Source of the DNA: Capsaspora owczarzaki ATCC 30864
Lineage: Eukaryota > Opisthokonta > Filasterea
Assembly: GCF_000151315.2 (NCBI RefSeq)
Contig: NW_011887298.1
Location: forward strand, 1,275,695-1,339,694
Length of the DNA stretch: 64,000 bases
Direction of reading: 5' to 3'
Each line of letters starts with the position of its first letter. Position 1 is the stretch's first letter. The notes below the pieces were generated by a model. The model worked only from the letters and a program-made list of their open reading frames with translations. It did no database searches and was not told the origin of the DNA. The position numbers were made by a program, and so were the translations under genes. This document shows positions 1-64,000 of this stretch, in pieces.

Positions 1-2976
1 ATCATCATCATCATCATCGTCTTCCCCCGCGGCGGCGGGGGGGATTCAGGCAAACAGCAGTCAAGCACGCGTCAAACCCGAGATTTACACCGAAGTTCAT
101 TCCCGTTGGCTATTTTCCAACCCCGACGAGTTGAGAGACGCGTTCAAGATGCTCGAGGAGAACAATCATGACATTCGGTTGCGATACGACGCCAATCCCA
201 CCGAAGACGACGACATCGCTGAATGCGACTGCAGATTGTCTTCCGTGCAACCCGCGTCCACCGACTTGGCCGACGACGAAACTAGCGTAGTGCAAGATGA
301 TAGGGACGACATTCTTGAATTTCTTAACGACCAAGACGGGCACGACGAAAACTGCCGCTCAAGAACGCCTCGGAAGCGCAGGGGAGTCCATCTCACCAAG
401 GAGGAGCGAGATAAACTTCCGCAGTGGAGCCCTAGTACGACGGTCATTCCTGTTCGAACACGCCGTTGGTATTGCTTCAATAGACGCGATCCGTCGAGGC
501 CGCCTACGACCGTGCCAGACACACCAACTCTCCAACAACGATTTATTCGCGCCTGCTCCAGCAAGAAGCGAGTTGACAACAACTTTCACTTACGTCCGGA
601 GCTCGGCGCCGGATCCTGCAGTTTCGGTCTGAGATTGACGGAGCTTGGCCAACACATGCACGGCGAGCTGCTCCTTATTGGGTTCAAGCTCGAGCAGATG
701 GGTCGCCACGACACGGCTTGCACCGACGGCTCGCTCGCTTTCAAGCAGCGCGCGCATCCTGAAATCAAAGAGTGGGTCATGGATCTGGTGCGCAAGGGGT
801 GCTCGGAGGCGTCCATTGTAGCGCAGTTGGAAGGGCCAACTCTCAACCCGCCGCCTCGCCCTCTTTCAAGTTGGAACGTACCGTACACTTCTGGTCGCTG
901 GTATCCCACCAAAGACGCAATTCGCATGATGATAGTCAACTCAAGCAGCGAGAAGCTACATGGAACCGACCAGCAGCGCATCGACCAATTTCTCGCGTCA
1001 ACCTCGTCGTATGCCTGCTCTCACCCTCACTCGCTCTACCAAGATGGGCAGTGCCCCGGCGAAAGCCAATACGGCGACAAAAGCGATGTCATTTATCATC
1101 AATTTGTTCACTGCGACTGCCAGAGCTGCCTCGAAATCCCCCTGAGGGAGTCGAACATTCTGATTTTAATGACGCCTTGTCAGCGGGCAACGTGGGACGC
1201 CCTTCGTCCCAAGGTCCTGTTCCTGGATTCAACCTTCTCAGTCAACCGCTACGACTGGGCGACAACAGCACTCGTTGCTGCTGACGAATCAGGCGCTGGT
1301 GTGCCGCTGGCGTTCATGATCTCCGACAGAGATCGCGAGCATGAATATGCGCGGTTCTTGTCCGAGGTCAAGCACGCCGTAGGTGAAGCGTTTAATCCGG
1401 TGCGCATCGTCATCGACAAATGCGGCGCTGAGCGAAACGGCATCAATCAGGCGGTGCCGGGTGTGCAGGTGGCAACTTGCTGGTTTCACGTCTGCCAAGC
1501 GGTGGAGCGCCAGTACCCGGGCAGACTAGATCTTCTCTCGTGTATGGCTAAAATGCGGTATGCCAGGAATGCACAAGAGCTGAAGGACGCGAGCAACAGC
1601 TTGCTCAACGCCGCCGGCGAGTTCCAAGGTTATTTTCTGTCTCAGTGGCTCAACGAACGAGATATTAAAACCTGGACGCTCTTCCACCTTGGCTTGGTGC
1701 GTGATGCGCTGGATCAAGGCCACACCAACAATTTGATTGAGCGGTAAGCTTGTGATGATTGTGAGTCGCTTGTCCCGTGCCGAACTTTGGAACCTCGTTG
1801 ACTTGTCATTGCGACTTGCCTCCCCCATAGCTTTTTCGGCACGTTCAAGTACAAGTTTCTGAAAGGTTACCGCATGCACGATTTGGCAGGTCTCGCAATC
1901 AGGATTGTTCGGGACACGAACCAGCACTTCTGTTTGCAACGCCAACGCCAGCGACTCGACAAGCCGAATGTCGCCTTCCTTCCAAAGTTCCGCTCCTTAC
2001 TGCTTGAGAAAGAGATGCACGCAGAGAAGCTCGTGGAAACCGGTCAGGTGTTGGAGCTTCATCGCTACTTTGGTGTAGGACTTGTTCTGCCTCAGCGGAC
2101 GCTTTCTGAGCTTGATCTACTCCAAATTCGCGAACTCGCAAACGCTCACCTTGAGCCATTTTATCAGACGCGTGGCATGCCCTTGACTGAGGGTTTGCAG
2201 CAGCTGCACGAAGCGCTGAAGCAACAGTACCCAGATGTTGTGGTCGTTGGTGTCGAGCGGCGCTTTTGCAGCGCCATGCACGATCACGCTTTCATTTGCA
2301 GCCACATCCGTGCCGTCGCGCGGCACTTTGGAGGCATCGAGAACTTTCGTCTTCAAATCCATTCTCTCTTCGAAGAGCCACCAGTGTGTCCCGTGTCCCG
2401 CTCAGCACCCGTCAATCCTGCAAGCGAATCTGCTGTGTCCGCAGCCACTACTGCTTATGCCGATGATGCCCTGCCGACTGGCGCAACCGACATGGCCGTA
2501 GACGATCAGCTTGATGCAGACGGACCTGCTCGCACCTCTGACATGGCCGTAGACGATCACCTTCCCTCGGGCCCGGATGCAGACGGACCTGCTGACCGCA
2601 CCTCGGACCTCCCCGCCGAGCTCGATCCGAATCACGGAGCGTCACCTTCTGCGCGTAACTCCGATGATGCTCCAGAGCACAGCTCTGGCCTTGTTGAGAC
2701 GGTGGCCAGTCCCGACGACCTGGTGGACGAGCTCTCCAAGCTGTTCGAGAAAGGACTCGAGCGTCTCAAGACCATGGCTCAGGGCGATGAGTTGCACAGC
2801 CTCGTTCGCCAGCTCACACGCAATTGCAGCAACAGCATGCGGAATGCGACAGGTCAGCGAGGGATTCTTTCATTAGATACCCGGCGCACGCGTGGTGCAA
2901 CTCGTAAGGCTGCCAAATCTACCCGAGCTGCCCAAGCCAAGGCAAAGCGAACTGCTGCTGCCAAAGCCAACCGAGC

Positions 2977-4987: not shown

Positions 4988-7900
4988 ATGGCTTCTGCAT
5001 GGACACCGCGGCAGCGTGAGCTGTTTGAAAAGGCCAAGTCTTCCAATGTGGTCGAGTAAGTCTCGTCCAAGACCGAGGCGTGGTCGTTGCCGCGCGCTGA
5101 CTTATTTGGCGGCATATAGTTTCAGACGCTCAGGAATCACTGACGCCGATGCTTTGGTTATTGCCGAGGGTCTCAAGGAGAATCGCAATTTGCAGTATCT
5201 CGAGTAAGGCAGTTGCAAGGAAGGGAGTCGCTCAAGACGATATCTGACGTGTATCAATTAGTTTGGATGGCAACCAGATTGGCGACGCAGGAGCACAGGC
5301 GATCGGAGCTGCGCTTCGAAACAAGGCCAAGCTGTCTATTCTCTAGTACGTTCTGGAGCTGTCACAGAGGCTATTGGGCGCGCTACACTAACTTGAGCGA
5401 TCTGACATAGTTTGAGCAGGAACAAGATTGGTGACACTGGAGCTCGTGCCATCGCTGAAGGCCTGCAGACGTCGACTGCATTGACTGATTTGAGGTATTG
5501 GTCGCTCGTTTGAGCATCTCCAGCTTTGCTCCAGAATGGCTTGCTTCTGATTTTGGATGATTTAGGATGTTTGAGAATCAAATCGGCGATGCTGGAGCGC
5601 AGGCGATCGGATCTGCGCTTCGAAACAAGACCAAGCTGTCTATTCTTTAGTACGTTCTCGTGGTGTCACAGGGAGCGATTGGGGGCGCGACACTCACTTG
5701 GCCGAGTTGATGCAGCTTGGATGTGAACAGGATTAGTGACATTGGAGCTCGTGCCATCGCCGAAGGCCTGCAGTCGTCGACTGCACTCACTGTGCTCGTG
5801 TATTGTAGTCCCGTGTTGACCTCCTGTCGCATGTCAAGTTTCGCTCAAGAATGGCTTGCTTCTGATGTTTGTATGGCATAGGATGCACGCCAATCAAATT
5901 GGTGACGAGGGAGCACAGGCGATCGGATCTGCGCTTCGGAACAAGTCGACCTTGACTGCACTCAGGTACTTGTCTGGTGGTGTCACAGAGGCTATTGGGC
6001 GCGCGACACTAACTTGATCGAGTCGATGCAGCTTGAGTAATAACAAGATTAGTGACATTGGAGCTCGTGCCATCGCTGAAGGCCTGCAGACGTCGACTGC
6101 ACTCACTGACCTCCGGTATTGTAGTCGCCCGTTTGAGGGATCGCCGCATTCTTCAGCTTTGCTCAAGAATGACTTACTTCTGATATTGGTTTGATTTAGG
6201 ATGCACACCAATCAAATTGGCGATGCTGGAGCACAGGCGATCGGATCTGCGCTTCGAAACAAGGCCAACCTGTCCATTCTCTAGTACGTTCTGGTGGTGT
6301 CACAGGGGCGATTGGGCGTGCAGCACTAACTTTACCGATCTGACGCAGTTTGAGCAACAACAAGATTGGTGACATTGGAGCTCGTGCCATCGCCGAAGGC
6401 CTGCAGACGTCGACTGTGCTGACTGATTTCAGGTATTGGTCGCTCGTTTGAGCATCTCCAGCTTTGCTCTAGAATGGCTTGCTTCTGATTTTGGATGATG
6501 TAGGATGTTTGAGAATCAAATCGGCGACGCTGGAGCTCAGGCGATCGGAGCTGCGCTTCGAAACAAGACCAACCTGTCTATTCTTTAGTACGTTCTGGTG
6601 GTGTCACAGGGGCTATTGAGCACGCGACACTAACTTTACCGATCTGACATAGTTTGAGCAACAACAAGATTGGTGACATTGGAGCTCGTGCCATCGCTGA
6701 AGGCCTGCAGACGTCGACTGCACTCACTGACCTCCGGTATTGTAGTCAAGTGTTGACCTCCTGTCGCATTCAAGTTTCGCTCAAGAATGGCTTGCTTCTG
6801 ATGTTTGTATGGCATAGGATGCACACCAATCAAATCGGCGATGCTGGAGCAGAGGCGGTCGGATCTGCGCTTCGAAACAAGGCTAACCTGTCGAAACTGA
6901 AGTATGTTCTGTTGTGGTACAGGGGTGTGGGTGTGCGGGTCTTCCAACAACTTGATGCAGCAACATGAGCCATCGAACACTGAACGTCGTTGACAATGCA
7001 ATAGTCTGACAGACAACCAGATCTCTGCAAGCGCCGTTCAGTTTTTATCCAAAAGCGTTCTCGCAAAATGCGTTTTCTCGTGAGTGCCCTTGTCTTGCGG
7101 GTGTTTGTGACTTTTCCGGTCTTTCTGACTTGATTCAATTCCAGGGCCGAAAATCAGCGCACTCGCCCTCAAAATGCAATCAGTCCTCCTGCCATTCCAC
7201 CGAAACCTGCCCACTTAGACCATACTCCCAACTCGCCTCTCGCTGCGTCTGATGCGACGTCGCAGCAAGTTCGTGAACTCCAGGCGCGTATTGCTCAGCT
7301 GGAGCTAGCTCAGCAAACCACAACCGCGGCACCCATCCTCTCCACCATTCCGCGAGTGTCGTTGCAAGTTCTGTCGCAAGCCACAACGCAGTTTTCAGAG
7401 TCCAAGCGCATCGGTGGCGGTGGATTTGGCAGCGTCTACTCTGGTGTGTGGAGCGGTCAGCGAGTTGCTGTCAAACGGTTGGCAGCGGATTCAACTCAAG
7501 GCGTGGCTCAGTTTGAGGCCGAGCTCGAAGCCCTCTCGCGTTTCCGTCACCCGAATATCGTCACCATCATGTGCTATGCCCAGGAAGGCAACGAGCGTTG
7601 CTTGGTCTACGAGCTGATGCCAAACGGCTCTGTTCGCGAACGTCTCGATCGCAAGGGTGGCACGCCTGCATTGAGTTGGCAGCAGCGCCGAACCATTGCG
7701 ACTGATATTGCAAACGCTATGCACTTTGTGCAGACTGCCATTCCGCGTCAGCCGCTGTTCCACCTGGATCTCAAGACCGACAATGTACTTTTGGCCGCCG
7801 ACTTTCATGCCAAGGTCGCCGACTTTGGTCTGACGCGCTCTGCTCCAGCTCAAGTGGATGCACACAGCTACATTCGTACGCAAACGGTTCAAGGCACACT

Positions 7901-8432
7901 GCAGTACATCTGCCCGCAGTACCACCAGGAAGGCAAGGTCTCCATCAAAACGGATGTGTACTCGTACGGCATGATTCTGCTTGAGCTTGTTACTGGACAA
8001 CAGCCCAGCATCGATTTGATGGGTACTGTTCGGCACCAGCTTAAACGGAGCCGTAAAATCGATGCGGTGCTTGACAAGGCAATTGACTGGAGCAGTGAAG
8101 CTAAAGAGTCGGCACAGGCCATCGCCGAGCATGCGGCTGATTGTCTCGAACCCACGCGAGTGGATCGACCGTCGTTCGGCGAGATTTTGAGGCGATTGTC
8201 TGGCGAAGAAGTTGCAGGAGCAAACGAGGAAGAGATTATCGAGGGCAGCGATCGCGAGTGCTTGGTCTGTTACAACGCCCCGACGAATGCCAAGCTGATG
8301 CCTTGTCACCACGCATGTGTCTGCGTTGCGTGTGCTCAATGGATGATACAGCGTCGAGACAAGTGCATGATTTGCCGAGTCCTTCCGACTTCGTTCCAAC
8401 AGGGCACGTACACCAAGACTTTTGTTCCGTGA
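4988..8432 (+). CDS. LRR (ribonuclease-inhibitor type) - TKL/IRAK-like protein kinase - RING finger protein
   Basis: Fifteen exons give 812 residues: 4988-5055, 5120-5203, 5262-5345, 5411-5494, 5566-5649, 5716-5799, 5882-5965, 6032-6115, 6200-6283, 6349-6432, 6504-6587, 6653-6736, 6818-6901, 7005-7079, 7145-8432. Exons 2-13 are each exactly 84 nt and encode one 28-residue LRR; every intron is phase 2. The kinase spans about residues 470-738: GGGGFGSV loop, VAVK lysine, DFG, and a GTLQYICPQY activation-segment end. Two motifs are unusual: HRD is HLD, and the APE triplet reads CPQ. The C-terminus (about 756-795) is a RING with spacing C-x2-C-x11-C-x-H-x3-C-x2-C-x10-C-x2-C, the MIB/IAP layout. 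No signal peptide or membrane segment is visible, so it is probably cytosolic. Function is inferred: sensing through LRRs coupled to phosphorylation and ubiquitylation. No ligand can be named. Confidence 0.9.
5120..6901 (+). repeat. Tandem array of twelve 84-nt LRR exons with co-duplicated introns
   Basis: Two exon types alternate, one ending GARAIAEGLQ(T/S)STAL, the other GAQAIG(S/A)ALRNK. The two-exon unit recurs at 5411, 5716, 6032, 6349 and 6653, a period of 304-317 bases. A larger copy is also visible: 5411-5965 and 6349-6901 match at an offset of about 937 bases, including their introns. The 71-nt intron at 5495 and the one at 6433 differ at only two positions by eye. This indicates recent duplication or gene conversion of whole exon-intron units. 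Confidence 0.9.
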
Positions 8433-15883: not shown

Positions 15884-18800
15884 TTAAACCACCTGGACGG
15901 TCGCGCTGCACTTTTTGCAGGGAAGGAACTCTATTGATGTAGCGGTGCCTTCAATGGAGTCGAGCATGGTGCGCGTCGAGTCGTCGAGAAGAACGAGCGG
16001 CTGCTCCAAAACGCCGCGGGGGAAATCAAAATCAACAAACAAACAAACAAACAAACAAACATGTTCAGAGTGAGTATCGCAGCCAGGTTCAAAAAATTCC
16101 AACAATCGACTTGCAACAGATCAAATCACCCCATTTCGTACCTGCTCTGGTGGTGGAGATGGTGGCGGTGCGCCCTCGATGCTCTCACCCGGTGTACGCT
16201 CGTGTGGCGGCCGTCGGCAACGCTGGAATGTCTGGATGGAGTCGGTGAGCTGGTTGTAGAACTGTTGCTGGACCGACTCGGGAGCCTGGTCGACAGCCTC
16301 GCTGTCGCCGGGTAGAGGAACGATGCCTTCCAGAGCCATGTAGCGGAGTAGCAGGCGCTTAAGCTGTGACAGGGTGTGCTTTTGAATTTCACGCTCCTCG
16401 AGCAGTTGCTCAATGTAGGTGTTGCGCTCTTCAAACTTCTTTTTCAGCGCGGCTCGCTCTGCCTGGTACATGAGAATGTACTCGCCCACCGTGTCCGTTT
16501 CCAGCGCCAATCGTTCCGACAGGTGCTGCTCTTGCGCCAACCGCTCGACCAGCGCAGTCTTTTCGTCCACGACCTGCACAAAGTGGCCCTGCAGCTTGTC
16601 CATTTTGGTCTGCAGCTCCTCTCGCATGGTTTCGTGCGACCGCAGGCTAGAGCGCAATGCATTCACCTCGGCCTCGTGATCGACGCGGGAGATGATGTCC
16701 GTGTCAGCTAGGGATGACTGTTGTTGCTGGTGTTGTTGCTGTGATTGCGAGGACGAGGAAGAGGAGGGTTCAGCGTCACTGTCATCGTGGTGGTGGTGGT
16801 GGTGTTGGGCGTGCTCCATCTGCTGTGCTTTCAGCAGGGCTTGTGTTTGGAACACGGTTTGGTTGAGTTGCTCATTTTCGTCTGTTAGCCGTGAGTTTTC
16901 AAGCTCCAATTGTTGCATTCGCAAGGTTGTTGCCGCCGATACTTCAGCGTCCTCGTCGTTGTTGTTGTTGGCTGCGTCGCCATTAGAGGACAAAATACCG
17001 CTGGATGCACCTGCTTGAATAGCATCCAACTCTTGTTGCAATCGCGAACATTGAGCTTCGAGTTGACTCGCACGATGCTGCTCGCTGTGCGCAGATTCGG
17101 TTAGCTGGGCATTCGAATTCATAATCTGCACAAACCGATCTTCCAGTTCGGTGACTTGCGCCTTGAGTGCACGGTTTTGCGACGTCGCCTTGCTGATCGT
17201 CTCCCCGTCACTGCGGAGCTTGCCCAGCAAAGAGTCGCGATCGTACATTGAAGCCTGGTAGCGTTCGTTTTCCACCCGCAACGCCGAGAGCTGCTCGAGT
17301 TGTTGGTCGTACTTGGCCTGAAGCGCGACCATCGCGGCAGCCTGGGTGTCTGTTTGCTCCCGTTGGGCGACATCGGCTCCTTGCAGCTTTTCAATTTGGA
17401 GACGCAGGCTCTGGGTTTCTGCGGCCGATTCGGCAGCTTTTGCCTCTAGCAGCCGCTCGAGCTCCTCGATGCGTGCCTGTGACGCCCGTGATGTGGCGGC
17501 AGCAAGTGCCTCGTCGTGTGAATTTGGCGGTTGAGTCGATGATTCAGATCCAGAAGCCGAGGCCGAACTTGCAACGGCGGTGGCAGCTGCTGCGGTCGCA
17601 GAGGCGACAGCTGCTGCCGTGTTTCGTTGTGCATCTTGCAACTGGGCCTCCAGGTCGGAGATGCGCTTGGCGTCACTGTCGCGAGCGCGAGCAGTAGTGT
17701 CATGCTGGGTGGTCAGAGTTTGGACACGCGCCGTCTCCAGCTGAAGCTCGCTGGCCAAGCTGTTGCGATCCTCTTGCACTTGACGGAGCGCCGACTCAAG
17801 CTTGAGAACGCGCTCGTGAAGCTCCGTGTTTTCGGTAACAATGGCAGACAGTCCCAGTTTCTCGGCGCCCGCTTGGCGCGTCGCCGAAACGGCTCCGTTG
17901 CTGAGCGGGGGAGCAGAAGTCTGCAAAAGAGGCGAGAAGCCATTGCTGCTGCTGCCGTCGCCAACAATTTGCTGAAATTCCAGTTGCTTTAACGCAATGG
18001 CCTTGCTCAAGTCGCGGTTTTTGATTTCCAGGTGCTCCATGCTGGTGAGTTGCCGCTGGAGTCGCTGCACAAGCTCGCTGTTGGACTGGCGCGACTCGCG
18101 CAGCTGCTGCTCGCACTCTCGCACACGATCGTTGGCGCGCGCCAAATTCGCCTTCCCGTCTTCCTGCGCTCGGCTTTGCTGATCACAGCGCGCTCGCAAG
18201 TCTTGGACGGTGCGGTCGAGAGTGTCGGCGCGTAGCTTTTGCTCCGTCGCCGAGTCGCGCATTTCGCCAACAGTGCGCGCATGCTCTGCGCTCTGTCGCT
18301 GGGCTGTTAACAATTGCTGTGCGAGCTCGCCTTTGTCGCGAATCAACGTCTGAATGACCTCGTTTTGCGAAGCAATGGTGCGCTCGAGCTCTGCGAGTGC
18401 ATCCACTTGCACTTGGTGAATTGGCGCCAATCCCGGCAATGTACTCGCTAATCGCTGTGTCATCTGTGATTTTGTGAATGTGAGCGTGAGAGAGGAGGGT
18501 GGCTTGTGATATCCCGCATCACGAGTAACAAATCCAATTGCGAGCACCAAACCTGTGCTAACGGATCGAGTGGAGCCACAGCCAGATTCGAAGCGACTCG
18601 CTGCGGTGGCAATGCAACGCCGCTTGTGTGGGCATGGGTCTGTGCATGCACCGCGGCTGGTGGATGAACAGTCGATGCGCTTCTTGAGGGAGCAGCAGGA
18701 GCGAGTCCATTCGGCAACGGTGATGACGGTGCGCCTGCCTGTGCCTGTGCCTGTGCCTGTGTCCGTGCCTGTGCCTGTGCCTGTGCATGTGCCTGTCCAT

Positions 18801-19351
18801 GCGATGAAGCAGCAGCTGAGCTCTTGAGTGGTGCCTGGCTCGCTGGCGGGTGGCTGGCTCCTGCTGCGTTGGCACTGGAACTGGCTGCCTGCTGGCTCGA
18901 GCTGCTGCTGCTCGCACCGCCGCGACGCTTCTTCTCGAGCTAGTGCGTTGAGCATTTTGTTGTTGGTTGGTTTGTTTCACACAGTTCAAAAAAAAGCGCA
19001 AGGTCAGCAATGGTCTGTCAGTCAGCTCAGAGCTCAATAACGCAATGGCTCAAAAGCGACGCTACTGCCCCACATCCACCATTGGAAACTGTAAAGTTGG
19101 GTTGATGGATTGAAAGTAGTGAGCATTGGAGGGGCGATGGGGGGTTGGCGGCAGAATTGGAGGTGGGACAGTCGTGGCGAGGGGGGCGTGAAGGAGGAGG
19201 AGGAAGAACGAAAACGGTTTGGATTCAAAAAGAAAACGCCGCGTATCGGAATTGTTTGGATAAAAACTGGTGGATTGGATAGGGAAAGTGAACCAAGCGC
19301 GCCTACCAATCTCTGGGCGAGCTGCGCCTTCGCATCGGTCGCGGCGTCCAT
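15884..19351 (-). CDS. GOLGA2: Golgin GM130 homologue (Golgi matrix coiled-coil protein)
   Basis: Four exons, all junctions phase 0: 19351-19307, 18939-18553, 18463-16142, 16000-15884; 956 residues (human GM130 is about 1000). Exons 1-2 give a basic start, KAQLAQRLLEKKRR, like the p115-binding N-terminus of GM130. A Ser/Ala/Gln-rich linker follows, partly encoded by a GTGCCT-type repeat (Gln-Ala on the coding strand). About 650 residues of heptad coiled coil come next. The decisive block is ETDTVGEYILMYQAERAALK, which closely matches the GM130 C-terminal signature ETDTIGEYI-LYQ-R. A short last exon ends SATVQVV, resembling the C-terminal PDZ ligand by which GM130 binds GRASP65. Likely role: cis-Golgi tethering and stacking. 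A longer frame through the first two introns exists but is broken into unlikely Cys/Thr repeats, so the spliced model is preferred. Confidence 0.88.
18733..18797. repeat. Hexanucleotide repeat (GTGCCT)n in GM130 exon 2
   Basis: About ten imperfect units; on the coding strand they are read as alternating Gln-Ala (with a few substitutions), a linker without predicted fold. Confidence 0.8.
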
Positions 19352-44325: not shown

Positions 44326-47300
44326 TCAAAGCGAACAAACCTTTGCTCGGAAAGATTCCATGGTGGTGTACGATGCCTTGAACGAATCGATCGGAAGCGC
44401 TTCAACGGCCTTGAGAATACCCGCCTCCTTGGCCTTAAGGTTGACAAAAGTAAACCAACACCACAAAGAAGAGGAAGGAAAAATAAAACCACCACCAAAT
44501 TGCGTGAGTTGTCAACCAGGCACCAACATCAAACCGACCAGGTTTTGTGTGGCTTTACCTTGTCGGCACGAAGGTCCTTAACTGTATGAATCAACATATC
44601 CTCGCCACACCCGTTCTCCACAGGCTCGCCGAATACTTCGGCGGAAGGCGAAGTCTTGGCTGCCTCGAGTGCGTCCACAAGGGACGAAAGCGACAAAACT
44701 CCAGCAGCCACGTAGAAGCCCAGGAAGCGACCAAGGTGCTCGTAGCACTTCGGGTTGTCAACCTTCTCTTCAGCCAGCGATGGCAAGACAAGACCGACTC
44801 TACATTATGAAAACAACCAAAAACAAAGAAGCAAAACCGAAATTCAGGTGAGAAAAAAATGAAGAACGATACCCGCAAACCCCTCCCCCTTCGCCCGCCA
44901 CCACCTCGAACAACAATTAGTGCAGAATAACACACCCTTGAGCAAGGTCCAAAGCAGTGCCAGTCGGAGGTGTCGACTCGAAGAATTTGGAAACAATCTT
45001 GAAAATGGTGCGTTGATCAAAGCCCTTGTCGTTCTGCATAAACTTTGTCGCAGCAGCAGCAAAGAAAATGGGCAGAATGGGAGCAGAAGGCGAGTCGATT
45101 GCACGGATGGACTCGACAACGCGCTCTTCGTCAGGGTCTTGCTTGAACTTGTCAAGAATCTCCTTGGCTTTCGTTTCGGCTTCTTCGCGCGTCGCACACG
45201 CCGTTCGGGCTGGCGAAGCAGACTTGCCTGCCAAAGCAGCGGCAACAGCATCCGCGCCAGCGGTAGCGGCGGCATGGGCAGCAGCGTTCGCGGGAGCCGC
45301 GGCAGGTGCGGCGGGCTGCGGGCTGTCGGATTCTTGCGACATCAAGCGGGCGAACGAGTTGCCACGAGGAGCAACAACACGCTCAGCGCCGGGCTTGCTC
45401 AAGGCCGGAGCGGAAGCGGCGCCGGGCTTGCCAGAGCTCCAGCCGGTAGCGCCGCCAGCGTTGCCGGACGATCCTTGCGGACGGAGAGAGACATCGTTGT
45501 TGGCGGGGGCCGGAGATGGCTTGCGCGCGCCAGCGTACGACCAGTCGGTCGGACCGGCTCCTGGGGCGGGGCTTCCAGGAGCATTCTTGCGACCAGATCG
45601 ATCGTTGCCTCGGCGGTCGCCGCCACCACGATCGTTGCGGTCATTGCGGTCGTTACGGTCATTACGGTCGCCACGGTTGTCGCGATCGTTGCGGTCACGG
45701 GGACCACTGCCACCACGCGAGGAAGGCGTGGCTGTTGTGGCGGGGCCCTTTTCGGCGTCCTTGGCGGCATCAACGTGAATTTCAGCCAAGGTCTTGGGGC
45801 CGGCGTCGGCGTGACGCGGAACCCACTTGCCCTTGCGCAAATCAATCACAGCCTCAATCATGAAGCGGATGCGCGACGAGACGGCATCCTTGATCGAGAT
45901 CTTGGCATTCAGCGCGCCAATCACCTTGTCCATCTCGGCAACAAATTCGGCCTGCTTGGCCTTGTCGATTTCAGACTCGCTGTCGCGAGCCTCAAACTTG
46001 CGACCGACGGTGGTCATGAGCTTGCACAAGCACTCGAGGCTCTCCTCATCAGAGGTGTGCAGCAGCGTCTTGAAGCAGTACAGCATGATTTTGCGGGTCA
46101 GCAAACCGAGCTTGAAGAGCTCACCAATAAACTTGATGTTGCCCAGGTAGCGACGCTTGGCGAGCATCTTGGCCTCAGCGTCTGCCTCCTTTTGACTCGG
46201 TGTCTGGTCTTCGGCGGGAGCTTCCTCTGCAGCTTGCTTGGACAGCTTGGCAAACTTTTCGAATTCGTCCTGGCAGTGAGCAAGCATGGACTTGCGGAAC
46301 TCGCCGTGGCGGGCGGCAGTGTTTGCGGCGCTGTCTGCTTCAGTCGCCGTGGTCGGGGCAAGGCGGTCACCGAGCTTTTTGCACAGCTTGGCATACATTT
46401 CACTAAATTTGGGCTCGTCGAGGGCCTTGCCGAAAATGAGCTTGATCAAGCCATCCAGACGCTGTGCCGTGCTGATTTGCAGCTTGAGGATGTCGTCAGA
46501 AAGCTTTTCAAACTTCTCAAGAGTAAGCTTGTTGAGAATACTCTTGATGGAGCGCAGAATGCCTTCCGTCTCTGCCTGCTCCTCAGGCATGTCTGGCGCG
46601 GGTTCGTATCGCTTGTAGCCCTTCTCGGAACGACGCAGCGGCTCGAGGCGCTCGAGGTTGGACGGCAAAAGACCTGCACCTCCACGGTGGTTGCGGTCAC
46701 GACCACGGCCGCCACGGCCACGACCGGTAAAGTTCGGCTGGCGCATGCCAGGATGCACAACTCGCGGGGACTGGTTGCCCTCCCCGAGGAGGCCAGGCGA
46801 GGCGAGCTGACGCTGCGACGTACGCGCGTGCTGCTGTTGACGGCGCGCAAGCTGGTCGGCGACAAGTTTCTCCTGCGCCTTGATGTGTTCGTGGTTGATG
46901 CACTCGTCGAGACCGCTCTTGTTGAGGGTTGCCGGAGGTTCCTTGCACAACTCACGGAACTGCATCAAGAAGGCAAGAGAATGGCGCTGGAAGCCATCAG
47001 CACCGCGCGGGGTCCTTGGAATCTTGAGCGGAGTGGGCAACAGACCGGGCGAGTCGGGAATATCGCCGACAAGACCGCCGCGCTTGCGCGGAGTGGTCGG
47101 CTCGCCATTCTCGTCCAACTCGTCCTCGTCGTACTCGTCGTCAAACTCGTCCTCAAGACCGTCCTCGTCGTCGAGTTCCTCGGTCTCAGACTCGTCATCA
47201 TCGAATGCACGATGCAAGTCAGTCTCTTGGTCGTCGTCCTCGGCGGCAGGCGCAGGCGCAGGCGCAGGAGCAGATGAAGCGGACGCGACTGGAGTCTTCT

Positions 47301-48034
47301 CCACAGCAGCAGACTTGGTTTCGGTCGGCTTGGCGGTGATGGTGGCAGCGGCAGTAGCAGCAGCAGTCGAAGCAGCTGGAGCAGGAGTGACGGCAACAGG
47401 TGCGGGCGCTGAGGCGGTCGCAGGAGCGGCGACGGCAGCGGCAGCCGACGACGCAGCCGCAGGGACAGCAGCTGAAGCAGGAGTAGACAAGGCTGCAGCA
47501 GCAGCTGCAGCTGCTGGGGTCGTGGTTTCGTCGACATGCTCCTTGTTGACCACCTGCATCGTCGAGGGATCAATGATGGCAAGCGCGTGCTTCTTGCGCG
47601 GGGTAATCACCTGAGCCTGCGGCTGGAACTCTTGGGCACTGGGATTGGGTGCAAAGGTGGCAGCCCCAGCGTTCATGCCGGGCATGGGGTTGAGTTGATA
47701 GTTGTTGTACCCAGGGTAAAAAGGATATGACGGCACAAAGCCAGCTGGGGAGAACATCATAGGTCCAGCCTGGTAGAACTGTCCTGGCTGCGGAATGAAA
47801 CGCGGAGGTGTGTTGGCAGAAGGCTGGAATGCGGGAGCATTCACTTGAAGCGAGCGACCGGGTGAGAGATGCTGCGCCGGAGCGGACCCGTGATGAACCA
47901 CATTGTTGGGTTGCGGCTGGTTGGGAGCCACACCAACAGGGATTTGCGGTGCGTGTGCGTGCGGCACGGCTCCAGCGACAGCAGCGAATGGTCGCGTCTG
48001 CGCGTGCTGTGGAAGTTGGTGGTGTGGAACAGGG

Positions 48035-48073
<39 letters not shown>

Positions 48074-48468
48074 GCTTGCACAGGCTGGTGTTGCTGTTGT
48101 TGCGGCTGCTGTGGCTGCTGTTGATGCGGCTGTTGTTGTGGCTGCTGCTGCTGCTGTGGTCGGTTGCCGACAACCGGGCGAGGACCCGCGACACCATGAC
48201 CGGGAACGGCGTGCGGCAGAGCATGCACGGCTTGCGCGGGGAGCCGCGGTCCGGTGGGGAAGCGCTGTTGCTCGCCGGGCGGCGCCGACTTTGTGCGCGC
48301 AACGTCAAATGTGGCATTGTCGGACACTGTGCCAAACTGGATGGGCGCAGCGTTCTGGGCAACAGGCTGCGTCGGCACGGGCACGGGCACGTTTCGGGCA
48401 GCAGCCGATGCGAAGGACAGCACTTTGGGCGGGGGAGCAGCTCCGCCGTTGGCGTTAGGCTGCGACAT
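44326..48468 (-). CDS. EIF4G1: Translation initiation factor eIF4G
   Basis: Three exons, 48468-44936, 44799-44559 and 44433-44326; 1293 residues. The N-terminal 480 residues are low complexity with a poly-Gln tract (48035-48072) and Ala/Pro-rich and acidic stretches, as in other eIF4G proteins that bind PABP and RNA there. The eIF4E-binding site is recognisable as RHSLAFLMQF, but the position of the canonical Tyr is His (codon 46981-46983, residue 496). The MIF4G domain, which binds eIF4A, spans about 630-880 (ILNKLTLEKFEKLSDDI ... GNIKFIGELFKLGLLTRKIM ... ESLECLCKLMTTVG). An Arg/Gly/Asp repeat (DRNDRNDRNDR) and a GG-rich linker follow, then a helical MA3-like C-terminal region across exons 1-3. 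The large plus-strand frame over this gene is an antisense shadow. Confidence 0.92.
48035..48072. repeat. CTG/CAG repeat encoding poly-Gln in eIF4G
   Basis: About twelve perfect units, read as Gln on the minus strand in the disordered N-terminal region; further imperfect CAG/CAA tracts follow up to 48160. Confidence 0.85.
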
Positions 48469-52044: not shown

Positions 52045-53970
52045 TTAATGCCCTCCTGATTGCTTGCTTCCCTTCTGCTTGGCACGTAACAAGTTGCCGA
52101 AATTCACTACAGTTTGCATGGACGGGTCGGGCTGGAGAGCGAGGGTGGGGTTGCCAGAAACTTGCAGGGCATGTTGAACAAGCTCGTTCTCGCTGACTTG
52201 GAATCCAGCATTCTTCCAAAGCTGTCGCGTGCTAGCAAGTACCAGTCCCATCGTTTTCCCTTTGGGCACTCCGCTTTTGGCCAGCACGTCGCCAGACAAA
52301 GGGAAGACGGGGATGTTCGCAAAGTAGATTTCCTGGGGTGAGACGTATGGAAAGACCAACGCAGCAACCCAGTCAGGGTGGACTTTATCGACCAGCATGT
52401 CGAGTGCAAGCCGACGAGCAAAAGCAGAGTCCGGCTCGTTCACCAGGTGTCGATTGAAAACGAGGAAGAGCAACAAGTCACGCTGCTGGTTGGAGAGTTT
52501 CCACCTGAGCGCAAGCTCGGCCGCGGAATCTTCGTTTTTCACAATGTTGGAAAGACGAATCATTTCAATGTACGCATGTTCCTTCCATCGATCCGCAACA
52601 TCGGTGGGCGGGAGTTGGAGCGCCAACTCTGTCGTATGCCTCACGGCCATTTCGAGTTGTTGCAAGAGCCGAATCTCGCTGGAGGCTACTGACTGATGCA
52701 AATCAGCAAGCCCAATGATGTTTGCAACGCCGCACCGCGTCATTACCTCGAGTGTGTGAGGGCAGCTGCGTTGCTGGAGAATTTTGGAACACTCGAGCCA
52801 AATACGCTCGGCCGAGATGCCGGACAAGTTTGGAGCATTTTCAGCAATGCACTCCAGTGTTCCAGGCTCAACGCTCACATTTCCTTGCCCGAGCGAGTCG
52901 CACATGCGGCCATAGAAGCGGAAGAAGCGCAAAATGCGGAGGTAGTCTTCCTTGATGCGGAGATCCGCCGTGCCGACAAAAGCGATGTGATTGTTTTGCA
53001 GGTCTTGTACCCCGCCAAAGTAGTCGTACACGGTCCCGTTGAAATCAATGCTCATCGAGTTGAATCGTAGATCGCGACGTTGGGCATCCAGGCTCCAATC
53101 CGACGTAAACTCGACCTCGGCATGGCGTCCGTCCGTGATTTTGTCGACGCGCAGGGTTGTCACTTCATACTGATCGTAAAGTTTTCGAGGATTGCCTGCA
53201 GCAGCAGTAGTAGCAGCAGCAGCCGCTACTGGATCCGTGCCGTTGTCGACCACCTGCTGCTGCTCTGCTGCTGATGGCGGGCGTTCAAACACGACGGTGA
53301 CGGTGCCATGCTTGAGCCCCGTCGGGATGACGCGAATCCCGGCCTCTTCGAACATGTGCTGAAGCACGTCGGGTAACGCTTCCGTCGCGAGATCAACGTC
53401 CTTTGGCTGAATGTTCATGAGCAGGTCGCGCACAGCACCTCCGACAATGCGGATCGAGTAGCCATGCGAGGTCACAACGCGGTGGATCTCCTGGAGCGAA
53501 GACGAGCCAATGACTTGATGCCACAGCGGGCAGTTCAGCGTCCCAATGGCACCGGGCGTTCCAGCAAGTTCAGCAGCGACTGGCAACAAGTCCATCTGCA
53601 GGAGGGCCGGCTTGGAGTGGAGGAGGCGAGCAGGGTGAACTGAAGCAGAGGCAGAAGCAGAGGCAGACGCCGTCAGTGAGAGCAGCGAGAGGGATGAGTT
53701 CCGGAGTCGAGCCGCTGCGTTCTGTGCAGTGAATGCAGAGCAGGATGCAGAGTGGGATGCGAAGCGACGGCTGGTCGGAAGGGAAGGCGGAGACGGCGCG
53801 AGGCAGCTGGACGAAGCGCGTGTGAGAGGGCGAGATGCAGTCGCAGTCGCAGTCGCAGTAGTCACAGCAGCAAGTGCAGAAGTGCGAATTGGAGCAATAG
53901 ACGCAAGTGCAGCCGTCCGAGGGCGAGAGAGCGGCGAGAGAGCGAGGCGATGACGCAAGAGTACGAGCAT
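52045..53970 (-). CDS. TRNT1: CCA tRNA nucleotidyltransferase
   Basis: A single exon of 641 residues. The class II nucleotidyltransferase head is clear: RIVGGAVRDLLM, then DVDLATEA with the two metal-binding Asp (near residues 185-187), and the template-like RRDLRFNSMSIDF. The downstream EDYLRILRFFRFYGR and SAERIWLECSKIL segments match the neck helices. The enzyme adds CCA to tRNA 3' ends in nucleus/cytosol and mitochondria. The first 125 residues are Arg/Ser/Ala/Thr-rich with almost no acids, which is a long presequence-like extension; an inner Met (LQMDLLPVAAEL) could start the cytosolic form, as in other eukaryotes that use one gene for both. A Gly/Ala insertion follows VFERPPSAAEQQQ. It is one of the few multi-hundred-residue genes here without introns. 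Confidence 0.93.
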   Translation of the reverse strand: MLVLLRHRLALSPLSRPRTAALASIAPIRTSALAAVTTATATATASRPLTRASSSCLAPSPPSLPTSRRFASHSASCSAFTAQNAAARLRNSSLSLLSLTASASASASASVHPARLLHSKPALLQMDLLPVAAELAGTPGAIGTLNCPLWHQVIGSSSLQEIHRVVTSHGYSIRIVGGAVRDLLMNIQPKDVDLATEALPDVLQHMFEEAGIRVIPTGLKHGTVTVVFERPPSAAEQQQVVDNGTDPVAAAAATTAAAGNPRKLYDQYEVTTLRVDKITDGRHAEVEFTSDWSLDAQRRDLRFNSMSIDFNGTVYDYFGGVQDLQNNHIAFVGTADLRIKEDYLRILRFFRFYGRMCDSLGQGNVSVEPGTLECIAENAPNLSGISAERIWLECSKILQQRSCPHTLEVMTRCGVANIIGLADLHQSVASSEIRLLQQLEMAVRHTTELALQLPPTDVADRWKEHAYIEMIRLSNIVKNEDSAAELALRWKLSNQQRDLLLFLVFNRHLVNEPDSAFARRLALDMLVDKVHPDWVAALVFPYVSPQEIYFANIPVFPLSGDVLAKSGVPKGKTMGLVLASTRQLWKNAGFQVSENELVQHALQVSGNPTLALQPDPSMQTVVNFGNLLRAKQKGSKQSGGH

Positions 53971-61605: not shown

Positions 61606-64000
61606 TTAGAGGCCGCTGACCATTTGCGACAGTTGTTGGTCGTGCTGCTGTTGTTGCTGATCGGCCGGGTTGTCGAGAAGCCCGGCAAAGTTGCGATTCG
61701 CATTGCCGGAAAGCACGTCCATCGCGGACGAGGTGGATGGAGCAAATGCATTGGGATTCATGGCGCCTGCTTGCGTCAAGAGTCGGAGATCATTGATCAG
61801 CTTGGCTTTGCGAGCTTCGATCAGGGCAACCGTGTTCGGATTGTTGGCGTGGAGCCGCGCTGCTTCATTGAGCTGGGCGAGGTTCAACTGGGTCTGTTGA
61901 ATGCGCTGAGCCGGCGTAAGGTTTGCCTTCGCTTGCTGTTGCTGCTGCAGTTGCTGTTGTTGCTGAACTTGCAATTGCAACGCTTGCACCTGGAAGTTTT
62001 GTTGCGCTTGCACATTGTTGAGACCAAGAAGAGGGTTGTTGGCCAGCGCACTGGCGGCTTGCTGTTGCTGCTGCTGCTTTTGCTGCTGCTGCTGCTGTTG
62101 CATTTTCGCCTTGAGAAGGGTGGCATTTTCAATGACTTGCAGCTCTGGGGCACTGAGTTGCTGACCAGAGCTTTGCTTTGCGACCAGCATGGCAGCGCTG
62201 AGGATGGTGGATCGATCCAGAAGGTTCTTCTTCTCGAGGGTCAGCGACTCGCGTTCGGCCGTTAGAGCGGCGAGGGCGCGAGCCTGATCTTCCGGAGTCA
62301 TGGACGCCTTCTTCTCGGCGAAGGCCTGTTGCTGCAGCTGAAGGTTTCGAAGACGGTTCTGGAACTCGTTCCGCGCCTGTTCCAGCATCTGGCTCGTTTG
62401 CTGGATTTGGTTTCGGGAGAGAGTGCTGACACTCGAAGAAGCAGCAGCAACAGCAGCACCACCACCACCGCCATTCCCAAGAGTACCGAGCGCTGGCGAC
62501 CCGACAAGGTTGGGAGTCGCCCCAAGGTTGCCGGCAAGCATGTTTGGAAGCATCGGGTTGTTCGAAGTGAGCATGGGGGACATGCCAACGTTGCCAAGAG
62601 CATTGGAGGTTGCGTGCTGTGCCATCGCAGGGGCTGGCGAGGGCGTTCCACCCGTGGAAGTGTTGTTGCGAAGGAGCGTGCTGTTGGGGACGACCTGCAT
62701 CGGCGTGGTCACCATAGAGTTGAGTTGCGGCGCAGCCGCGACAGAGGCGCTGGAAGGAGCCGAGCTCGGGTGAGAATCAGCGTGCTGCTGCGTTTCGACG
62801 GGAATGATACCCGAGGCCTCCTGCACACTGCGTTGCTGCATGCGTTGGAAGAGCATGCGGCGTTGTGCAATCTTTTTGGCCTTCATACGCGTCTGCTGCT
62901 GCTGACGCTGCAGGCGCTGCTTGATGCCAGCGCAGAACGGAACGACGCAAACATCGTCCTGGCAATGTTTGGCATGGTAGAAGCACAGCGCAACAAGCTG
63001 CTTGCAAATGTTGCACACGGGTGCCTTGACCTGGCAGACGCGAGTGTGTGCGACCACCTTCTTCATCTTGACACACGAGCCGTTCTTGCACTCCGTGTCG
63101 CTGCACTGGCACGCGTGAACGAGCGACTCGATGCACCGCTGGATGGCAAGGGCGCGGTTGGCAGTGTCACTGCCTCCGTCGCCGCCGCCCGAGGCGCCCA
63201 TGGCACCCACAGCAGCACCAGCGCCGCCGTCCCCGCTGGCGTCGAACGCGACTTGCTCCATCGGGTGTTCGTGCGGTTTGGCAGTCTGGCACTTTGGGCA
63301 CAGATCAAACTCGGGACACACTGTGCAGCGGTAGCGTGTGTCGGCGACACTGAGCGAGACTTGGCACGAGTCGCACGTAATGTGGTAGCCAGCAGAGTCG
63401 TCGGGATTGTGCAGATGGTACAGGAACATGAGGCTGGCATACTTGGCGCGCCGCAGAGTCGAGAACTCGTAGTGGTTTTCGCGTGCCAAGTCCAAAAAGG
63501 CCTCACGGCCTTCCATGAGGGCGCACGCCACCAGTGGGTCGGGATCCTTGATGTCGACCAGCGGGTCTGTCGGAGGACGCAGCGTGGCCACGAAAAAGCC
63601 GTCCTTGGCCTTCTCCATCATCTGGTAGAGCTTTTCGCACACGTCAGAGTTCTGGCGAGTCAGGGCGCGCACCTTGACGGCGCCCTTGGCCTTGCTGCCA
63701 GACTTTTTCAAAGCCGCCTTCTTGCTGCTGCCCTTCTTGCCCTTCTCTTCGCCAGCTTCCTCAGTGTCAGTCCGCTCCTTGGCAGCTTCCGTGAGCGAGT
63801 CTTCAATCACGCCGGGCCAGTAGTCTCCCTCGAAATAGGGCAGTTGGCGGACGGTCAGGATGTCGTCGGTCATGCACTGGGAGTAAATGTCGCAAAAGTC
63901 CAAAATGACCTTGTCGTCGCGCGCGCGTGTGAGCATCTGACGGTACCATTCTTGGAGACGCTTGGGCTTGGGCACCTTCTGGTCTTCGGGATGGCAGTAG
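61606..64000 (-). CDS. CBP/p300 histone acetyltransferase, C-terminal part (5' end outside window)
   Basis: One open frame of 798 codons running off the right edge. It starts within the acetyltransferase domain at YCHPEDQKVPKPKRLQEWY, almost identical to animal CBP/p300, and continues with TDDILTVRQLPYFEGDYWPG, where Trp-Pro belongs to the catalytic region. A Lys-rich autoacetylation-loop-like segment (GKKGSSKKAALKKSGSK) follows. A ZZ zinc finger (CDSCQVSLSVADTRYRC ... CPKC, about 63390-63260) and the TAZ2 domain (about 63165-62840, with HxxxC-xxxx-C sets such as CIESLVHACQCSDTEC and CNICKQLVALCFYHAKHC) are complete. The remaining 350 residues are Gln/Asn/Met-rich and disordered, resembling the interaction tail of p300. 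Bromodomain, KIX and TAZ1 would lie to the right of the window. Confidence 0.96.
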   Translation of the reverse strand, partial: YCHPEDQKVPKPKRLQEWYRQMLTRARDDKVILDFCDIYSQCMTDDILTVRQLPYFEGDYWPGVIEDSLTEAAKERTDTEEAGEEKGKKGSSKKAALKKSGSKAKGAVKVRALTRQNSDVCEKLYQMMEKAKDGFFVATLRPPTDPLVDIKDPDPLVACALMEGREAFLDLARENHYEFSTLRRAKYASLMFLYHLHNPDDSAGYHITCDSCQVSLSVADTRYRCTVCPEFDLCPKCQTAKPHEHPMEQVAFDASGDGGAGAAVGAMGASGGGDGGSDTANRALAIQRCIESLVHACQCSDTECKNGSCVKMKKVVAHTRVCQVKAPVCNICKQLVALCFYHAKHCQDDVCVVPFCAGIKQRLQRQQQQTRMKAKKIAQRRMLFQRMQQRSVQEASGIIPVETQQHADSHPSSAPSSASVAAAPQLNSMVTTPMQVVPNSTLLRNNTSTGGTPSPAPAMAQHATSNALGNVGMSPMLTSNNPMLPNMLAGNLGATPNLVGSPALGTLGNGGGGGAAVAAASSSVSTLSRNQIQQTSQMLEQARNEFQNRLRNLQLQQQAFAEKKASMTPEDQARALAALTAERESLTLEKKNLLDRSTILSAAMLVAKQSSGQQLSAPELQVIENATLLKAKMQQQQQQQKQQQQQQAASALANNPLLGLNNVQAQQNFQVQALQLQVQQQQQLQQQQQAKANLTPAQRIQQTQLNLAQLNEAARLHANNPNTVALIEARKAKLINDLRLLTQAGAMNPNAFAPSTSSAMDVLSGNANRNFAGLLDNPADQQQQQHDQQLSQMVSGL

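Follow-up and report, generated by a model that had tools for sequence, protein, structure and literature searches.

Capsaspora owczarzaki, a single-celled organism close to animals, carries genes in which leucine-rich repeats (LRRs) are laid out one per exon in rows of 84-nt exons. In the subfamily characterized here the quantum of change appears, judging from the sequences of related genes, to be the exon pair, a unit of roughly 310 bp with conserved introns. One such gene lies at positions 4988-8432 (+) of a 64,000-nucleotide stretch of the ATCC 30864 genome (contig NW_011887298.1, positions 1,275,695 to 1,339,694 of the forward strand), hereafter the window; positions given without a contig name refer to it. 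We consider it quite likely that the array of this gene serves an LRR-kinase-RING protein, which is probably cytosolic, as its recognition module, and that it was made by repeated unequal homologous recombination of the two-exon unit.

Reading exon borders from the DNA and deducing splicing from them, we found that the gene comprises 15 exons, all on the plus strand, which when joined form a single open frame encoding an 812-residue protein, with all 14 introns in phase 2. Exon 1 (4988..5055, 68 nt) supplies the start codon and leaves in phase 2; of four donors tried for it, this was the sole one to give a single open frame. Then comes a row of twelve 84-nt exons (5120-6901), every one in phase 2, bounded by AG and GT and read in one frame, exactly as the earlier note had claimed. 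The first is an N-terminal cap repeat of a diverged A type, termed A' (5120..5203), and a similar cap begins all 12 subfamily arrays described below. It is followed by a B-type exon (5262..5345), types being assigned by comparison with the subfamily arrays, and by five AB units: unit 1 (A, 5411..5494; B, 5566..5649), unit 2 (A, 5716..5799; B, 5882..5965), unit 3 (A, 6032..6115; B, 6200..6283), unit 4 (A, 6349..6432; B, 6504..6587), which is 94% identical to unit 1, and unit 5 (A, 6653..6736; B, 6818..6901). The 84-nt exons are symmetric in the joined model, with phase 2 at both ends, and are frame-neutral, as had been supposed. The idea that each LRR has its own exon of equal length holds for these twelve and fails for a thirteenth LRR-like exon, a C-terminal capping repeat of 75 nt (7005..7079 in the joined model). 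The last exon (7145..8432) encodes a linker, a TKL-type protein kinase and a RING finger (Pfam PK_Tyr_Ser-Thr and zf-C3HC4_3) and ends with the stop codon. The eleven introns between the 84-nt exons span 58-84 nt (58-103 nt for all introns of the gene), so that, unlike the exons, they are not uniform in length. Exons and introns together form a DNA tandem repeat at 5281..6892 (+), with a period of 304 bp, i.e., two exons plus two introns, in 5.2 copies with 79% matches (Tandem Repeats Finder).

The LRR array of the encoded protein was recognized by Pfam LRR_6 (E 3.7e-53), and its 28-residue units show, by eye, the LxxLxLxx(N/C)xL core that, together with a length of 28-29 residues, characterizes LRRs of the ribonuclease inhibitor (RI) class. 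In line with this, ribonuclease inhibitors (1dfj, E 2.1e-43) head the best 60 of 89 PDB matches of the repeats, with NLRP proteins lower. The kinase, whose catalytic Lys, HxD and DFG are present (by eye), groups by sequence matches with the TKL / RLK-Pelle-IRAK kinases, and among the best 60 of 2081 matches its nearest solved structures include SYMRK, FERONIA, BAK1, BRI1 and IRAK4. The RING is a predicted C3HC4-type zinc finger (zf-C3HC4_3, E 2e-10) with 44 matches in the genome, itself included; because a RING follows a kinase match downstream in the same frame at 16 loci (a count by eye, based on coordinates and on frames of equal length), the kinase-RING ending appears to be common to further loci beyond the window gene. 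Most of the stretches compared stop short of the RING position or show none by a simple pattern, to which only the window gene gave a match. Two RING-like copies stand in tandem in one 1044-aa open frame at C19:100968-101330. A Pfam search at E 0.001 detected neither NACHT nor NB-ARC in the 812 residues, which sets the protein apart from NLRs, and NACHT is rare in this genome (4 matches, all outside the window protein). Inspection of the translation by eye brought neither a signal peptide nor a membrane segment to notice, and the protein is probably cytosolic.

As for the neighborhood of the gene, the window has a G+C content of about 54% and no Rfam match at the gathering score. Pfam matches, all on the minus strand, indicate a golgin-like coiled coil (16124-18955), a MIF4G protein (44920-48468), a poly(A) polymerase-like protein (52048-53970) and a TAZ/ZZ/HAT (CBP/p300-like) fragment (61609-63975). 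About 3 kb upstream of the LRR-kinase-RING gene, a frame with a MULE transposase domain occupies 131-1747 (+). A link to MULE transposons, the family considered here, was rejected as the general cause of the arrays: by eye, a MULE lay within 10 kb of a listed LRR match in 1 of 11 instances, namely the window copy.

The genome, of 27.5 Mb in 29 contigs, contains 6 T-box matches. We searched it for related repeats. One window repeat as query gave at least 150 matches (the best 150 of 846 candidates), as did a repeat of a more distant type (the best 150 of 1664 candidates); among the matches listed, LRR repeats formed at least 122 clusters on 19 contigs, and at least 64 of these clusters contained more than one listed match. 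A 27-residue profile, carrying no splice-site condition, was run over 27 genome stretches, the window included; eight loci (L002-L008, and L052, itself within the window) do not figure among these 27. It found 258 LRR units in 26 of the 27 stretches, the window among them. An AG stood exactly 1 nt before the unit in 256/258 (next commonest AG offset, 137/258), and a GT exactly 83 nt after the unit's first base, at the end of an 84-nt exon, in 248/258 (next commonest offset, 112/258); the units share ancestry and the stretches were chosen by LRR matches, so these are not 258 independent trials. One splice site is missing from 12 units. In 11 of these a substitute site lies a multiple of three away (3 nt for 9 donors; 3 and 12 nt for 2 acceptors), and for the remaining one, a donor, there is none. 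The uniform 84-nt exon thus appears to be a family-wide design, many of whose members are kinases, rather than a peculiarity of the window gene.

The DNA of the two-exon unit, introns included, matched 14 loci over much of its length; further matches were five short pieces (40-61 nt) elsewhere in the genome. In the 12 of these 14 arrays that are available in full, the order is always the same: each opens with an A-like cap A' and reads (A'B)(AB)n, n ranging between 2 and 13. Their exon counts are all even (12 in the window; 6, 6, 8, 10, 12, 14, 16, 16, 18, 22 and 28 in the others), and as the 12 arrays are related, these should not be read as 12 independent tosses. Exon type followed position, in strict A/B alternation, in 147/147 typed units, which are the 168 units of the 12 arrays after exclusion of the 12 first caps and of 9 with odd splice sites or spacing. 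It is because the full arrays are even-numbered and alternate in this way that we take the exon pair to be the unit of change. Moreover, exons of the same type share 0.74 identity within the subfamily arrays versus 0.49 for A against B, so recombination would align A with A. The earlier note had held that any single exon, or any number of them, could be duplicated, lost or skipped in frame; in the window's subfamily, the even counts of all 12 full arrays and the unbroken alternation speak against change by single exons, and single-exon modularity was rejected there.

The other two of the 14 loci fall outside this set. One is C9:664924-666243; the other, C7:1119496-1122576, where a single unit was detected alongside partial DNA matches, departs from the even counts and is possibly a remnant or decayed array. 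In the array at C2:593500-598917, one intron in positions 2607-2895 of that region is ~204 nt long, compared with the usual ~65 nt after B exons, and the profile search found no LRR unit in it. The pattern differs at 13 loci of a distant subfamily, where exon identity is equal at odd and even lags (0.68 and 0.68). Profile counts there were 4, 4, 4, 5, 6, 6, 6, 7, 8, 8, 8 and 9, and a further locus had two clusters, of 6 and 8. Whether these counts are truly odd or even is uncertain, since some arrays (e.g., on C12 and at C9:707000-716900) have double-length gaps in which units may have been missed. Single-exon modularity is possible in this distant subfamily.

Array size differs between paralogues, from 6 to 28 exons in the 12 arrays, in agreement with the claim that repeat number varies in evolution, and the comparison with the kinase exon suggests that it changes fast. 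In a trio on one contig (the window gene and two others), parts of the kinase exon differ pairwise by a dS of 0.09-0.17, while n is 5, 4 and 3; in a second trio, n is 13, 10 and 7 at a kinase-exon dS of 0.08-0.17. These dS values come from parts of the kinase exon only and could have been lowered by conversion of kinase exons; one gene, C15a, was compared over a shifted frame, which makes its dS to other genes unreliable. Through these paralogues, copy-number variation arising in the germline is supported, on the evidence of the assembled genome. Within each of two near-identical inverted gene duplicates (98.3% and 99.2% over the array), unit numbers are equal. In the first (C15:60700-66500 / C15:127300-133100), identity is 98.3% over the array and 92-96% in other pieces, and the longest open frame after the array is 266 aa in one copy versus 444 aa in the other, which may point to a broken copy or to a flaw in the assembly. 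The second, of the distant subfamily (C12:41500-51400 / C12:89500-99400), is 99.2% identical over 2.6 kb, with eight units found in both copies.

Traces of change are also seen inside the window array. The introns after its A exons are 97% identical between units 1 and 4 and 96% between units 2 and 5, the exons of units 2 and 5 show lower identities (0.82 and 0.77), and the introns that follow exons 4 and 10 match each other at 0.79. From this we infer a step of three pairs (938 bp) that was later overwritten in places.

Units are related across genes as closely as within them: mean identity is 0.745 within genes and 0.744 between genes. For 56/70 AB units the nearest unit lies in another gene (70 of 72 AB units were counted, leaving out the near-identical second C15 copy). 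The remaining 14/70 have their nearest unit in the same gene, compared with a mean of 6.8 and a maximum of 18 in 2000 randomizations of the labels. On a tree of units, the gene labels require 47 changes, compared with a mean of 50.3 for shuffled ones (as few in 11/200 shuffles); the bootstrap of this tree had not settled, and support was good for 15 of its 67 inner branches. As same-gene neighbors exceed random and the tree changes fall slightly below shuffled, mixing between genes is strong but not complete. This closeness fits exchange between genes, and it also fits an old, diverse array that was copied with the gene and then underwent loss.

Repeated unequal recombination of the two-exon unit, the process we favor, would proceed as follows. 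The recombining unit would be an A exon, an intron, a B exon and an intron, each exon coding for one predicted 28-residue RI-type LRR. With phase 2 at both ends, in-register exchange between any two units, whether by unequal crossing over or by conversion, would keep the frame, and A and B would be too different to pair, so that arrays would gain and lose exon pairs. Similar units would be common to about a dozen sister genes, through descent or exchange. Residues of the expected concave face would drift or diversify, with the scaffold conserved. The horseshoe would probably bind a putative ligand, and signal output would probably pass through the IRAK/plant-RLK-like kinase and the RING, a candidate ubiquitin ligase, both enzyme activities being predicted. 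The germline would in this way yield a repertoire of horseshoe lengths and faces. A bolder version, which we offer tentatively and regard as possible though doubtful, is that the organism maintains a large, fast-turning repertoire of intracellular LRR-kinase-RING sensors whose binding faces the germline assembles as two-exon units are shuffled between genes, with exon skipping as an optional further layer. Such recognition would be NLR-like, but with NACHT replaced by an IRAK-like kinase plus a RING.

Across 142 units (the 147 typed units without the second of the near-identical C15 copies), positions 26, 0, 2 and 3 of the repeat, which flank the leucines of LxxLxLxxN, are among the most variable. 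In known LRR structures, positions flanking these leucines face the concave side. The modular binding surface that the earlier note had proposed is borne out to this extent, as variable residues fall at the expected binding face, placed there by general knowledge of LRRs. In 16 disjoint unit pairs at ≥80% identity (recent pairs), with positions 26, 0, 2 and 3 taken as concave, pN was 0.209 at concave positions versus 0.078 elsewhere (Fisher on N and S counts, p = 7e-5); other positions, chiefly 9, 22 and 23, also had a pN >0.2 in these pairs. Overall pS in the 16 pairs was 0.225 and intron divergence 0.160. The presumed concave face had a pN/pS of 0.92 (95% bootstrap 0.67-1.29) and the rest of the repeat 0.34 (0.26-0.45). 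All-pairs comparisons, which are saturated, gave a pN/pS at positions 0, 2 and 3 of 0.52/0.61 (A) and 0.57/0.47 (B). We do not claim positive selection, as the interval of the concave value includes 1 and the all-pairs comparisons are saturated. The presumed concave face changes at about the neutral rate, which relaxed constraint fits as well as positive selection does.

Such a rate also suits a neutral account, in which it was by chance that an exon contained a single repeat, mistakes in recombination then increased its copies, and repeat number and variable residues are non-adaptive; identical exon length is likewise what duplication alone predicts. We nevertheless regard this account as rather unlikely. 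The scaffold is clearly constrained, as its pN/pS of 0.34 indicates, and 11 of the 12 units with a displaced splice site have an in-frame alternative. Furthermore, closely related sister genes show conservation in the parts of the kinase exon that were compared (dN 0.010-0.036 at dS 0.081-0.172), and related repeats recur in those at least 122 clusters on 19 contigs, at least 64 of which have two or more listed matches.

A different reading is that the exon design exists mainly for alternative splicing, with skipped 84-nt exons giving horseshoe lengths that differ by cell or life stage, the skipping of a single exon being known from NLRP3. All twelve 84-nt exons are frame-neutral, and a Capsaspora splicing study (PMC3870316) reports differential exon skipping enriched in protein kinases, with 191 cassette exons and RT-PCR positive for 7 of 8 tested. 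Likewise, LRR exons of NLR genes are described as strictly frame-preserving, and a human NLRP3 isoform lacks exon 5 (PMC6642158). However, frame neutrality is expected from exon duplication anyway: the identical length and phase of the exons are accounted for if each was duplicated with its introns, selection for skippability is not needed, and an exon with phase 2 at either end is not, on that ground alone, proven to serve splicing. The introns of the window gene are short (58-103 nt), and retained introns (2986) far outnumber cassette exons in Capsaspora, according to PMC3870316. Among the A and B introns examined, 4/139 can be read through in frame. Nor are the splice donors clearly weak, the mean U1 match out of 9 positions being 5.3 for A, 5.8 for B and 6.3 for the distant subfamily. 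A-exon donors are mostly GTATTG (40/70), with a +5 G in 10/70 (examples in the window, on the plus strand, at 5495, 5800, 6116, 6433 and 6737), and B-exon donors mostly GTACGT, with a +5 G in 78/82; total U1 match differs little between A, B and distant exons, and the A donors are at most a possible sign of skipping. On balance, we judge it unlikely that splicing is the main reason for the design.

False exon numbers produced by collapsed or expanded tandem repeats in the assembly are a very improbable explanation: an assembler could be misled by the few units that reach 94-97% identity, but mean unit identity within arrays is only 0.745, and all 12 arrays begin with a cap exon that is distinct and finish with one of B type. 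Least credible of all is a somatic or programmed diversity generator that changes array length among the cells of one clone, for although recent, near-identical units (W.1/W.4 in the window, 94%; C2c.2/C2c.3, 95%) are recombination substrates, the assembled genome already contains the window gene whole and with an intact frame, a casual look at the locus showed neither a cassette store nor a recombinase, and the two gene pairs of 98-99% identity have equal unit numbers.

Several known systems resemble the array and the protein that carries it. Ribonuclease inhibitor (1dfj and others), the best solved match for the LRR array, has alternating A and B type repeats, as here; its exons hold two repeats, and unlike the window protein it is without a kinase. 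Plant RLK-type kinases are also combined with LRRs, and the window protein differs from RLK/Pelle/IRAK kinases in its RI-type LRRs, in that inspection by eye showed no obvious signal peptide or membrane segment, and in its C-terminal RING.

Among NLR genes, alternating 28- and 29-residue LRRs belong to the two-LRR exons of NLRP genes. In an NLR paper (PMC6642158), alternating 28- and 29-residue LRRs are mentioned, and most human NOD and NLRC genes are described as having one 28-residue LRR per exon, preserving the frame. The window gene resembles these NOD and NLRC genes in its RI-class LRRs, in having one 28-residue repeat per 84-nt exon and in keeping the frame (PMC6642158). Unlike NOD/NLRC and NLRP proteins, its product has no NACHT, and its output would be a kinase plus RING. 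The variant name c.2717+158 implies that NOD2, too, has phase 2. Compared with the window exons, the NOD2 junction residue is presumably one codon off.

The LRR genes of Tetrahymena, as presented in one study (PMC6564038), have tandem exons of exactly 90 bp with an extreme phase-2 bias, and its authors suggest that genes of this type may have evolved only once, in that lineage. As here, a single-celled eukaryote carries tandem LRR exons of one exact length in phase 2; exons are often nearer to the exons of other genes, their number differs among close paralogues, unequal crossing over is proposed, and LRR and kinase genes have expanded (PMC6564038). In Capsaspora the exon is 84 nt instead of 90 bp, phase 2 holds throughout the array, number varies among close paralogues, and exons mix between genes strongly, though not completely. 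The differences, again with respect to PMC6564038, are that the Tetrahymena repeat unit is one exon plus one intron whereas that of the window's subfamily is two exons of types A and B; that a LINE-like element occurs near the Tetrahymena arrays whereas MULE, the sole transposon family checked here, has no such link; and that Tetrahymena has thousands of such genes compared with at least 122 repeat clusters here.

A literature search by title found no account in print of the two-exon unit, of the 84-nt length in a single-celled organism or of the kinase-RING output. Uniform LRR exon arrays are thus a known kind, of which the present variant is new and perhaps independent. With a comparable case far from Tetrahymena, in which exons have another length and one subfamily appears to change by two exons at a time, uniform arrays begin to look like a path to variable recognition proteins that evolution can take repeatedly. 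The sister genes, with their known array sizes, offer a ready system in which to measure the rate at which exon units are gained and lost. Finally, since this organism is close to animals, it becomes testable whether the one-LRR-per-exon design of animal NOD and NLRC genes is older than animals or arose again.
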